Positions 20,729 through 25,980 of a stretch of DNA of 64,000 nt are shown one piece after another (position 1 is the stretch's first letter; every line of letters begins with the position of its first letter). The stretch comes from an uncultured Bacteroidota bacterium. Its GTDB lineage: Bacteria > Bacteroidota > Bacteroidia > UKL13-3. The stretch covers positions 62,001-126,000 of the forward strand of contig CAINMV010000014.1 in the NCBI GenBank assembly GCA_903850915.1, given 5' to 3'. The notes beneath the pieces were generated by a model. The model ran no database searches. It was not told the DNA's origin and saw only the letters and a program-made list of their open reading frames with translations. The position numbers were made by a program, and so were the translations under genes.

Positions 20729-23719
20729 CTACAATAATCGATCAGGTATTTTATCCCGATCGGCCATTGGCAAATGTTTGAGATACTCTACTTCAATGCT
20801 CAGAAAATCATATTCTTCAACTACCTTCCCGCGTATTTCATAGCAGCCTGAGCCCGTAAATGGATATTTTTTTACGCTGGGTGGAAAATGAACGGTGTCA
20901 ATCCAATCCCCGTCGATGTCGATGAAGGTGCCGAAATACATGTTTTCTCCTTTTGATGTTCGTGTTCTTTTGTAATTGACGAGATATCCAACAATAGCCG
21001 TTTTTTTGTTGATGCCGCGTTTTAAATCGTGTGCTTTTAAATTTACGGGTGGCGGGTCGCGAAGCAGATTAAAGGGGGAGCTTAGCGAAAATCCAAACAG
21101 CGCGATCTCATCAAAAGCTTCGTCGATGGGCGACTCTATGAGTTCGGGTAACTTCCACTGTTTAATCTCGGCCTCAAACAATGCGGCTCCTCGTGGTACG
21201 GCTTTCGCCGGATGTAACATCGTATGTATTTCCCACAACAATGCTTTCTTCTTTTTTCCGGTAAAGGTGAAAGCTCCAGCACGAATAAGCAATCGCAATT
21301 GCTCTATCGAAAGGGGTACGCGTTTTATAAAATCGGCGATGTCTCTAAAGGCTCCATGTCGAAGTCGTTCTGCAAGAATAAGTTCAATACTATGCAATTC
21401 TAATTCAGCAATCATATGCAATCCGAGGTATATCGATTTCCCTTGTATAGTCGATAAAATACCGCTGTTGTTGATGCAGGGGCGTTCAATACGAGCGCCA
21501 TTCATACGGGCTTCATGTATGTATAATTCTTTCCTATAAAAGCCACCGCCATTATTTAATGTGGCTACAATATATTCGAGAGGGTAATAGGCTTTTAGAA
21601 ATAAAGCTTGATAGCTTTCTACGGCATAGCTTGCAGAGTGGCCTTTGGAAAAGGCGAAATTTGCAAAGCTTTCAATCTGATGCCAGATGTCGATGATACG
21701 TTTTTCATCGTACCCTTTTGCGCGACAGTTGGTGAAAAATTTTTCTTCTACTTTCGAAAATTCATTACGTTGCCTAAACTTCCACGACATCCCTCTTCGA
21801 AGTACATCAGCTTCCGCCAATGTAAGTCCGGCGAAGAGATGTGCGATTTTTATAACGTCTTCTTGATATACCATAACCCCATAAGTCTCTTCTAAAATAT
21901 GGTAGAGTTCGGGAAGGGCCTCTTGTGCCTTTTTGCGAAGCGTTACATCGCGATAGCGTAAAATGTATTCGCGCATCATGCCGCTTTTAGCTACCCCTGG
22001 GCGTATGATGGAGCTCGCAGCAACCACGCGCAGGTAGTCTTCAGCACGTAATTTAGTAAGTAACATACGCATTGCCGGCGACTCTACATAAAAACAACCA
22101 ATTGTTTTCCCAACGCGTAATAAGGATTTCACGTTTTCATCTTCTTTAAATTGAGCTACATTATGAACATCCAAGGTCACCCCATGATTCTCTTTTACAA
22201 GCGTTACCGTGTCTTTAATTTTCCCTAGGCCCCGTTGGCTCAAGATGTCGAATTTATAAAGCCCGATATCTTCGGCTTCTAGCATGCTAAATTGTGTGGT
22301 TGGAAACCCTTTCGGCATCATGCTTGTGGCCGAATAATAATGAATGGGCTCTTCGGCGATGATAATACCGCTCGAGTGTATGCTTAGGTGACTGGGAAAT
22401 CCTTTGATACGTTCGCTATAACGTAACACCAGTTTTCCAAGCATGTCAATGTCGGGGTATCTATCGTGGTATTGCAAACGTTCGATTTCGGAAGGTGGCA
22501 ACCCAAAAACTTTACCTAACTCACGTATTACAGCATCATGCTGAAATGTATTGTAAGCACCAAGAAGGGCGGTACGTTTACGCCCAAACCGTTCAAATAT
22601 ATATCGTGTTATATCGTCGCGATCGGTCCACGAAAAATCCATATCAAAATCAGGAGCATTGCTGCGGTGCAGATTAATAAATCGTTCGAAATACAAATCG
22701 AGGTCAATCGGATCTACATCGGTAATGCGTAGGAGGTAGGCCACGATGCTGTTGGCTCCGCTACCGCGTCCAACGTAATAATAATCGTGGTGCTGCGCAT
22801 ATTTAATAATATCCCAGTTGATGAGGAAGTATGACGAAAAGTTGAGTTGGGTAATAATGTCGAGCTCTTTTTCAATACGCATCATCACCTCTTGCGATGG
22901 ATTTTTATACCGATACGGTATCCCAGCCATTGTTTCTCTGCGGAGCAGCGCGATATCGTCGGCCATCGATTCGGTATAGTGTTTTAAGTTTTTGTTTGCG
23001 AGCTTGCCATAGATGAAGTTAATAGTACAGTTCGCTAGTAATTGTTGCGTATTCAACACGATTTGTGGGTATTGCGAGAACGCATTATGTAGCGTGTATT
23101 TGGGTAGCATTATTTCGTCGCCCTGTGCTTGTTGCCCTTGGGGTAGTTTGCTCAGCAAGGTGTTCGTGTCGATGGCGCGCAAAAGCCGGTGGGCGTTAAA
23201 TTGCAGTGCGCCTGCGAATGAGGCTGTTTGCAACACCACCATTTTATGGATGTATTTTTTTGCTTTTGAGAAAGGAAGCTGTTGCAATTCTTTGGCTGCT
23301 ATTCCAATAAATTCGTGCTCATGTAGTTTCCATCCTTTGTAGGCGCGCAGTGGGTAAACAATATAGGCATTGTTAAAGTCGGGCGCTATGGCATCAAAAT
23401 CTTTCGAGTGATGGAGGTGCTCCGACAAGTGGTCGTTTAGTTCTTTAAAGCCCTCGTTGTTACGTGCAATACCAACATAAAGCTGTTCGGCTTGGTTGCG
23501 AAAGTCGATGCCTACAATTGGCTTAATGCCATAGTTGTTGGCGGTTCGTACTGCATCGAGCACTGCGGAGGTATTGTTGATGTCGGATAGTACGAATTCG
23601 GTATAGCCCAATGTTCGCACATTATTTACTAGCTCATCGATGGCAAAAGTTCCGTAGCAGAAGCTATAATAAGTATGGCAATTAAGAAGCATTGTTTTTT
23701 GTGGTTGGCTATTCACCAA
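20729..23719 (-). CDS. DNA polymerase III alpha subunit, second-copy / error-prone DnaE2-like (about 990 aa)
   Basis: PHP domain CHTYYSFCYGTFAIDELV...LSDINNTSAVLDAV...GIKPIVGIDF; catalytic YYVGRGSGANSIVAYLLRITDVDPIDLDLYFERFINLHRSNAPDFDMDFSWTDRDDI; YQEDVIKIAHLFAGLTLAEADVLRRGM; C-terminal OB-like region. Neighbours dinB. ATG 23692 is an alternative start. Confidence 0.9.
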   Translation of the reverse strand: MVNSQPQKTMLLNCHTYYSFCYGTFAIDELVNNVRTLGYTEFVLSDINNTSAVLDAVRTANNYGIKPIVGIDFRNQAEQLYVGIARNNEGFKELNDHLSEHLHHSKDFDAIAPDFNNAYIVYPLRAYKGWKLHEHEFIGIAAKELQQLPFSKAKKYIHKMVVLQTASFAGALQFNAHRLLRAIDTNTLLSKLPQGQQAQGDEIMLPKYTLHNAFSQYPQIVLNTQQLLANCTINFIYGKLANKNLKHYTESMADDIALLRRETMAGIPYRYKNPSQEVMMRIEKELDIITQLNFSSYFLINWDIIKYAQHHDYYYVGRGSGANSIVAYLLRITDVDPIDLDLYFERFINLHRSNAPDFDMDFSWTDRDDITRYIFERFGRKRTALLGAYNTFQHDAVIRELGKVFGLPPSEIERLQYHDRYPDIDMLGKLVLRYSERIKGFPSHLSIHSSGIIIAEEPIHYYSATSMMPKGFPTTQFSMLEAEDIGLYKFDILSQRGLGKIKDTVTLVKENHGVTLDVHNVAQFKEDENVKSLLRVGKTIGCFYVESPAMRMLLTKLRAEDYLRVVAASSIIRPGVAKSGMMREYILRYRDVTLRKKAQEALPELYHILEETYGVMVYQEDVIKIAHLFAGLTLAEADVLRRGMSWKFRQRNEFSKVEEKFFTNCRAKGYDEKRIIDIWHQIESFANFAFSKGHSASYAVESYQALFLKAYYPLEYIVATLNNGGGFYRKELYIHEARMNGARIERPCINNSGILSTIQGKSIYLGLHMIAELELHSIELILAERLRHGAFRDIADFIKRVPLSIEQLRLLIRAGAFTFTGKKKKALLWEIHTMLHPAKAVPRGAALFEAEIKQWKLPELIESPIDEAFDEIALFGFSLSSPFNLLRDPPPVNLKAHDLKRGINKKTAIVGYLVNYKRTRTSKGENMYFGTFIDIDGDWIDTVHFPPSVKKYPFTGSGCYEIRGKVVEEYDFLSIEVEYLKHLPMADRDKIPDRLL

Positions 23720-23904: not shown

Positions 23905-25074
23905 TTATTTTTTTGTGTTCTTGGGGTCGTTTAAGTCCATGCCCGCAGCTCTATTCACCGCATCTTTACCATAACGGTTGCGCAGTTTATCCATCGCCTG
24001 ATATAGCTGTATCTGTTCGGCCGTATCTTCAAACATATTAAACTGATGGCCTCCCTGAATAAGATGACTGAATTTTATTCCAATGAGTCGAATGAGCATT
24101 CGCTTTTGAAAAAGCTTATCAAACAACCCCGATACTCTATCAATAAGAACATGGTCGAGCGATGTATATGGAATACGGGCTTGCATGGTATAGGTGTTAA
24201 AATCGGAATACCGAATTTTTATCGTCACACATGCCGTTAGCTTTTCTTCACTACGCAGCTGAAACGCGAGTTTCTCCGTCATGCCAATGAGGATGCCTTT
24301 TAGCGCTTTCACATCAATGGTGTCTTTGTCGAAGGTACGCTCGGTGGAAATAGATTTACGCTCGGAATACGGAATCACCGGTGTGTTGTCGATGCCATTG
24401 GCTTTCTTCCAAATGAGAGCGCCATTGTCGCCAAGTACCTGCTGCATCAGCGCTAAGGGCATCTCTTGCAAGGTATGAATCCACTGTATGCCCATGTCAC
24501 GCAATAGCTGAAATGTTTTGTCGCCCACCATTGGAATTTTACGGATGGAAAGCGGGGCTAAAAACGATTTCTCGGTTCCAAAAGGAATCTCTTTCTGTCC
24601 GTTGGGCTTGGCTTCACCTGTTCCCACCTTCGATACGGTTTTGTTCGTCGACATCGCAAATGAAATAGGCAGGTTTGTTTCTTTCATTATTTTCTGACGT
24701 AATTCCGTCGCCATTTTATAGCAACCAAAATAACGATCCATGCCGGTGAGGTCGATGTAAAACTCATCAATCGATGTTTTTTCGTAAAGCGGTACATCGC
24801 CACTAATAATTTCGGTAACAATATTGGAGTAGTTGCTGTATTGCTCATGATCGCCTCGCACGAGGATAGCTTCGGGACAAAGTTGTTTTGCCTGTTTCAT
24901 CGGCATGGCCGAATGCACGCCGAAGGCTCGCGCCTCGTAGCTGCACGAAGCTACTACGCCTCTATCACTGGTGCCTCCCACCAACACTGGCTTGCCAATA
25001 AGCTTGGGATTGTTAAGGCGCTCTACAGAAACAAAAAAGGAGTCTAGGTCGATATGTACAATATTGCGGTCCAT
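23905..25074 (-). CDS. dinB: Y-family DNA polymerase (DinB / Pol IV)
   Basis: IVHIDLDSFFVSVERLNNPKLIGKPVLVGG...VVASCSYEARAFGVHSAMPMKQA...KTSIDEFYIDLTG...STNKTVSKVGTGEAKPNG; QFNMFED near the C-terminus resembles a beta-clamp-binding motif. Confidence 0.95.
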   Translation of the reverse strand: MDRNIVHIDLDSFFVSVERLNNPKLIGKPVLVGGTSDRGVVASCSYEARAFGVHSAMPMKQAKQLCPEAILVRGDHEQYSNYSNIVTEIISGDVPLYEKTSIDEFYIDLTGMDRYFGCYKMATELRQKIMKETNLPISFAMSTNKTVSKVGTGEAKPNGQKEIPFGTEKSFLAPLSIRKIPMVGDKTFQLLRDMGIQWIHTLQEMPLALMQQVLGDNGALIWKKANGIDNTPVIPYSERKSISTERTFDKDTIDVKALKGILIGMTEKLAFQLRSEEKLTACVTIKIRYSDFNTYTMQARIPYTSLDHVLIDRVSGLFDKLFQKRMLIRLIGIKFSHLIQGGHQFNMFEDTAEQIQLYQAMDKLRNRYGKDAVNRAAGMDLNDPKNTKK

Positions 25075-25174
25075 GGTGTAATGCGTAGCCCTTTGTTTTA
25101 GTGCATGTTGAAGGACAAGAAAGTGCGCGCGCTGCCATCAAAATTACTACTGAAAAGGATAGCTTAAAAAGGTG

Positions 25175-25205
25175 TTGCAAATTACCAAATATTTTAGTAT
25201 GTTTG
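25175..25205 (+). promoter_or_regulatory. Putative Bacteroidetes-type promoter of the S24 regulator (TTG - 20 nt - TAtgTTTG)
   Basis: TTG at 25175-25177, TATGTTTG at 25198-25205, ATG at 25222. Confidence 0.6.
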
Positions 25206-25224
25206 TGCTAAATATTTTAGTATG
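25185..25224 (+). promoter_or_regulatory. Tandem operator-like repeats upstream of the S24 regulator
   Basis: Exact 15-bp direct repeat AAATATTTTAGTATG at 25187-25201 and 25210-25224. Each copy contains an inverted repeat: CCAAA-TAT-TTTAG (25185-25197) and CTAAA-TAT-TTTAG (25208-25220), 23 bp apart. Confidence 0.7.
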
Positions 25225-25980
25225 AGTAAGATTTCTAAAAACCTCAGGCATCTGCGCCAACTTAGAAAGTGGTCGCAGGAACAAATGGCAACGAAGCTAG
25301 GCATCAGTCGTGCACGTATTGGCTCGTACGAAGAAGAGCGTTGTGATCCACCGATCGATGTGTTGGTGAAGCTTTCCAATCTATTTCATATTGCGGTGGA
25401 TGCGTTGGTGAAAGCCGACCTCACAAAATTCAATGGCGAATCTTTTATTAAGGTCGGAGAGAATAGAATCTTGTTTCCTATTATGATTGATAAGGAAAAT
25501 AACGACGTGGTGGAAGTTGTTACGGTGCGTGCTTCTGCGGGTTACCTTACGGGTTATGCCGATCCGGATTTTATAGAAAAGTTGCCAGTGATGAATCTAC
25601 CGTTTAAGGTAGTGGGGAAACACCGCGCTTTTATTATCAAAGGTGATTCTATGCCTCCTTTGGCCGATGGATGTTATGTTATTGGTAAATATGTGGAGTC
25701 GTTAAAAAACATCCGAAATGGGCGTACGTATATTTTAGTGACAAAAAGTGATGGTGTAGTTTACAAACGCATTTATATGAATGGCTTTGAGCTAGAGATG
25801 CATTCCGACAACAAAAACTACCCTCCGTTTACTGTTGATGCTGCCGATGTGTTAGAGATTTGGGAGTTTGTTTGCAATTTGAATATTTCGGATAAGAAAG
25901 AAGAGGAGCTAAACCTGGAAAGTATTATGACGATGCTTCGCAGCATGCGGGTAGAGATGGAGGGGATAACAAAAAAGTAG
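25222..25980 (+). CDS. XRE-family HTH regulator with S24 (LexA/CI-like) peptidase domain
   Basis: HTH: LRHLRQLRKWSQEQMATKLGISRARIGSYEEERCDPPIDVLVKLSNLF; S24: possible Ala-Gly cleavage site in VTVRASAGYLTGY, Ser in IIKGDSMPPLADGCYVIG, Lys in VTKSDGVVYKRIY. Confidence 0.92.
   Translation: MSKISKNLRHLRQLRKWSQEQMATKLGISRARIGSYEEERCDPPIDVLVKLSNLFHIAVDALVKADLTKFNGESFIKVGENRILFPIMIDKENNDVVEVVTVRASAGYLTGYADPDFIEKLPVMNLPFKVVGKHRAFIIKGDSMPPLADGCYVIGKYVESLKNIRNGRTYILVTKSDGVVYKRIYMNGFELEMHSDNKNYPPFTVDAADVLEIWEFVCNLNISDKKEEELNLESIMTMLRSMRVEMEGITKK

Follow-up and report, generated by a model that had tools for sequence, protein, structure and literature searches.

The S24 repressor logic, with RecA-triggered cleavage of the repressor, is exemplified by Escherichia coli LexA. 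S24 proteins other than LexA have likewise taken over SOS-like control, such as HdiR of Streptococcaceae and UmuDAb of Acinetobacter, which differ from the system considered here in belonging to separate lineages and in having small regulons that comprise mainly error-prone polymerases. In Bacteroidetes, S24/CI-type repressors serve as LexA (Sanchez-Osuna et al., 2021; PMC8565304), and the published view holds that this non-canonical LexA family is of ancient phage origin. The CTAA-N5-TTAG operator of one group, represented by Pontibacter actiniarum (WP_025606010.1), was validated by EMSA with dyad mutants, induction by mitomycin C was shown, dinB, recA and parE were named as targets of the motif, and multiple boxes per promoter were reported (PMC8565304). 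A comparable arrangement is found in Elizabethkingia anophelis, where one region serves an S24 regulator and a divergent error-prone polymerase, both induced by mitomycin C, but where the operator differs (TTAC-AAATT-GTAA; PMC8565304).

The repressor gene analyzed here (25222-25980, + strand) lies in a 64-kb window, i.e., the whole stretch of DNA that was studied, and belongs to an uncultured lineage. Judging from sequence, we consider it very likely (probability of roughly 0.9) that it encodes a Bacteroidetes non-canonical LexA of the CTAA-N5-TTAG group and acts as a self-repressing master regulator of SOS, the two operators of which also control the divergent dinB(-dnaE), with recA and parE in the regulon. 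The locus is a genuine, well-conserved case of the known Bacteroidetes SOS system and extends this recently described system to an uncultured lineage. The original prediction of a damage-inducible switch had missed that the family was already known (PMC8565304) and that the regulon appears to reach recA and parE. Likened by features rather than by direct comparison with the sequences of the tested proteins, the repressor has in common with the P. actiniarum-type LexA the HTH_3 and S24 domains, the Ala-Gly bond, the Ser/Lys dyad and possibly the C-terminal helix, together with an identical operator and, apparently, autoregulation and the targets lexA, dinB, recA and parE (PMC8565304). It differs from that type in that the two operators are fixed 23 bp apart and are common to the divergent dinB, and in that the recA and parE sites are limited to some genera. 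The newer details are the fixed twin spacing, an operator variant of symmetric form (CTAY-N5-RTAG) that a sister clade carries, and eight genomes from which dinB has been lost but not the switch.

As originally described, an exact 15-bp direct repeat, AAATATTTTAGTATG, occupies 25187-25201 and 25210-25224, an offset of 23 bp, with its second copy running over the repressor ATG at 25222. The promoter elements also lie where they had been placed: the -7 box TATGTTTG (25198-25205, + strand) matches the TAnnTTTG consensus (PMC9723704), and the TTG (25175-25177) of a -33-like element, TTGCAA (25175-25180, + strand), stands 20 nt ahead of it. The dyads that had been noticed in the repeats are present, CCAAATATTTTAG at 25185-25197 and CTAAATATTTTAG at 25208-25220; the conserved unit, however, is CTAA-N5-TTAG (in extended form TRCTAA-N5-TTAGYA), whereas the final bases of the 15-mer (TATG) are not conserved among the aligned promoters and are shared by both copies only in that TTAG is followed by the -7 box in one and by the start codon in the other. 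The first dyad, predicted operator O1 (CCAA-ATATT-TTAG; extended dyad TACCAA..TTAGTA, 25183-25199), sits between the -33-like element and the -7 box, and the second, predicted operator O2 (CTAA-ATATT-TTAG; extended dyad TGCTAA..TTAGTA, 25206-25222), lies over the predicted transcription start and adjoins the ATG. O2 is an exact match to the operator published for a family of repressors inducible by DNA damage (PMC8565304), which supports the reading of the locus as a damage switch. Since the TAnnTTTG box covers positions -12 to -5 in F. psychrophilum (PMC9723704), transcription of the repressor gene would start near 25210 (+ strand), leaving a 12-nt leader, and O1 would span about -25 to -13 and O2 -2 to +11, so that both should overlap the polymerase.

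Of 65 genomes of the family, 52 hold a relative, the fetched relatives of the lineage all being MAGs. The phylogenetic footprinting of related intergenic regions suggested earlier bore the repeat out: the promoters of 25 close orthologues align gap-free, and every one of them keeps both operators at the invariant 23-bp spacing. Throughout these 25 promoters, the -7 box keeps its TA and TTG, O1 its first C and TTAG, and O2 its CTAA and TTAG; the second base of O1 is usually off consensus (18 of 25 O1 copies begin with CC), the spacers and flanks of the operators vary, and the -33-like TTGCAA is less conserved, being moved or altered in some genera. Four loci have their ATG shifted downstream by 10 bp, and the operators there are unmoved relative to the promoter. 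Across 81 loci, a spacing of 23 yields at least 11/12 dyad pairs in 36 loci, and every other spacing from 17 to 35 does so in at most 9; the twin-operator architecture extends to more distant relatives. A chance repeat in an AT-rich promoter, with dyads devoid of a regulatory role, might be suspected from the low-complexity A/T spacer and from a genome-wide CTAA-N5-TTAG count below that of the reversed-pattern control. Nevertheless, the 15-mer is the only one in the whole window with a second copy at most 60 bp away (mean of 0.01 in dinucleotide shuffles), and the twin dyad CYWA-N5-TTAG plus CTAA-N5-TTAG, searched for at any spacing of 14-40, occurs once in the window and in none of 100 shuffles. 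Together with dyads and spacing that are invariant over 25-81 loci and with operators kept at relocated dinB genes, this renders coincidence a negligible explanation. In two of the more distant orthologues (L031, L032), another dyad, AAGCAA-ATA-TTGCTT, adjoins the -7 box, a further change of motif.

The gene of DNA polymerase IV, dinB (23905-25074, - strand), is divergent from the repressor gene, and a dnaE-type gene for DNA polymerase III alpha (20729-23719) follows 185 bp downstream of it on the same strand; the two are likely co-transcribed. Within the shared divergent control region (25075-25221), O1 and O2 precede the dinB start by 111-146 bp. In most close loci dinB is likewise divergent to the repressor, and dinB-dnaE synteny spans many genera. 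Possibly, O1 and O2 serve only the autorepression of the S24 gene, dinB-dnaE being a mere neighbor with its own promoter. Consistent with this, the distance between the operators and the dinB start varies among genomes, at roughly 50-310 bp or more, comparison of the intergenic regions of relatives revealed no conserved dinB promoter, and in eight genomes the repressor and its operators persist with no dinB match at E <= 1e-80. However, dinB is a published target of the CTAA-N5-TTAG motif (PMC8565304), and two dinB genes that have moved, in different genera, each carry twin operators: in G021, dinB lies about 13 kb from the repressor with operators at -97/-74, and in G063 it lies about 100 kb away with O2 at -311 and a degenerate O1 23 bp on. 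Neither module retains the TTG of the repressor -7 box, and the fetched 4 kb around the relocated dinB contained no repressor gene. That operators have been preserved where the repressor promoter decayed is the strongest argument for their acting on dinB as well; it makes the neighbor-only explanation unlikely and strengthens the possible control of dinB raised in the original prediction. We also considered the TTGCAA by O1 as a reverse -7 box of dinB; judged by eye, it occurs in loci where dinB is absent as well, and hence it provides no evidence for a dinB promoter. Genomes of genus g8 that lack dinB have xseA (exonuclease VII large subunit) divergent to the repressor (L080, 3628-4758, - strand, the one case checked among the eight dinB-less genomes; also L079), and at another locus of this genus (L012, upstream of 1501) the dinB-repressor intergenic region contains a long inverted repeat, AGTGGAGATTG ... 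CAATCTCCACT.

Scanning the host genome for further sites, as had been proposed, gave a divided result: boxes were found at recA and parE, but there was no overall enrichment, with 22 RCTAA-N5-TTAGY sites, nearly all inside genes, against 36 for the reversed control. Counts of either form of the box fall below control, and we therefore discarded genome-wide counting as stand-alone evidence; the case for the regulon rests on position and conservation instead. The genes preceded by clear non-genic RCTAA-N5-TTAGY sites are recA, parE and the repressor gene itself. All five genomes of the genus have the recA box (at -89 in the window's own genome), as do 6/6 of genus g13, and most other genera of the family lack it; parE likewise has the box in all five (at -182 in the window's own genome), where its spacers differ, and hardly any genome outside the genus shares it. 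Our survey of SOS genes covered recA, parE and dinB, all of which carry the box. Two other CTAAAATATTTAG copies in the genome were set aside because they lie inside coding genes. A box about 50 bp upstream of an exonuclease gene (RNase_T + GIY-YIG), conserved in six g13 genomes (L165/L220-L225), was rejected as a target here, as it does not occur in the window's genome; at L097 an exonuclease gene of this type directly follows the repressor gene. In a genome without dinB, CTAA-N5-TTAG stands about 50 bp upstream of dprA (L188, 802-865; G059:C18).

The repressor (252 residues) comprises HTH_3 (PF01381, residues 8-60, E=1e-10) and Peptidase_S24 (residues 103-214, E=2.5e-10) domains and a predicted C-terminal helix (232-251). 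The Pfam scan returned only HTH_3/HTH_19/HTH_31 for the DNA-binding part and no winged-helix LexA domain (PF01726). The protein should resemble E. coli LexA in its S24 repressor logic but has a CI-type helical HTH and CTAA-N5-TTAG in place of the winged HTH and the CTGT-N8-ACAG box. The AlphaFold model is of moderate quality (pLDDT 64); it shows five N-terminal helices (block pLDDT about 72-90), in line with the penta-helical CI-type HTH of non-canonical LexA. The C-terminal helix, a trait of non-canonical LexA absent from LexA and CI, is modelled with low confidence (pLDDT around 45-50), and the sequence of these residues is strongly conserved. The predicted self-cleavage bond Ala106-Gly107 (codons at 25537-25542, + strand) and the predicted catalytic dyad Ser143/Lys182 are invariant in alignments of 16 and 39 sequences. 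By Foldseek, the C-terminal domain matches LexA and lambda CI, and the DNA-binding domain matches P22 C2.

The helical HTH, S24-type C-domain and paired operators over the promoter are also features of lambda CI and P22 C2, and one may ask whether the gene encodes a CI-type repressor of a prophage or mobile element, with operators of its own and unrelated to the host SOS response. The HTH is CI/P22 C2-like by both sequence and fold, and its best NCBIfam match is phage RstR, below the cut-off of that model. Unlike the phage repressors, though, the gene has chromosomal neighbors and adjoins dinB-dnaE, in synteny over many genera, boxes lie at recA and parE, and no phage-like ORFs were recognized by eye in the 18-33 kb part of the window; hence, a phage repressor is highly improbable here. 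Elsewhere (L161, 511-1494; G031:C68), GCTAATTATTTTAGC stands about 15 bp upstream of a phage-like gene with a GGPGSGRHP motif and no Pfam match, and a prophage at that locus may use the host box.

We propose that dimers of the non-canonical LexA would bind O1 and O2, which, 23 bp apart, should face nearly the same side of the helix, and would shut out the polymerase, such that the gene represses itself, as suggested by the positions of O1, flanked by the -33 and -7 elements, and of O2, over the predicted start. The same operators would also hold down the divergent dinB(-dnaE). Damage to DNA would lead, through RecA filaments, to cleavage of the Ala106-Gly107 bond, which would free lexA, dinB-dnaE, recA and parE, all of which have the same box. 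Operator binding, self-cleavage, damage induction and the location of the dinB promoter are our inferences for this organism. The protein could bind the same boxes yet act in part as an activator, or induction could require a partner protease, instead of simple LexA-type derepression, and the 2021 study, which lacked non-cleavable mutant data, left activation possible (PMC8565304). Yet both operators overlap the core promoter with its predicted start site, as is typical of repressor sites, and neither the cleavage bond nor the Ser/Lys dyad varies among the aligned sequences, which makes such an arrangement very unlikely.

In a sister clade (L099-L138; 55-60% identity), CTA-N7-TAG and the 23-bp spacing are kept, but the fourth dyad pair is mostly Y-R rather than A-T, giving CTAY-N5-RTAG. 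At residue 35 of the recognition helix, all 40 CTAA-group proteins have Ser and all 36 of the other group have Gly or Ala, a correlation confounded by descent, since the two groups are largely clades; a small mixed clade (L097, L098 vs L120, L123) is the exception to this grouping. We tentatively speculate, regarding it as a minority possibility, that the 23-bp module is invariant because two dimers must bind it cooperatively, lambda CI-like rather than LexA-like, and that the sister clade underwent a joint change of the protein and both operators (CTAA-N5-TTAG to CTAY-N5-RTAG), perhaps by way of residue 35 (Ser to Gly/Ala). If true, this would provide a traceable rewiring of an SOS switch. 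Our literature search retrieved no later paper on the twin-operator module. The relocated dinB genes with operators, the dinB-less genomes with the switch and the clade with a symmetric half-site change are natural experiments that together make the evolution of the SOS operator testable. Among the S24 regulators of the sister clade (e.g., L107, upstream of 5001), twin operators also sit in gene contexts without dinB.
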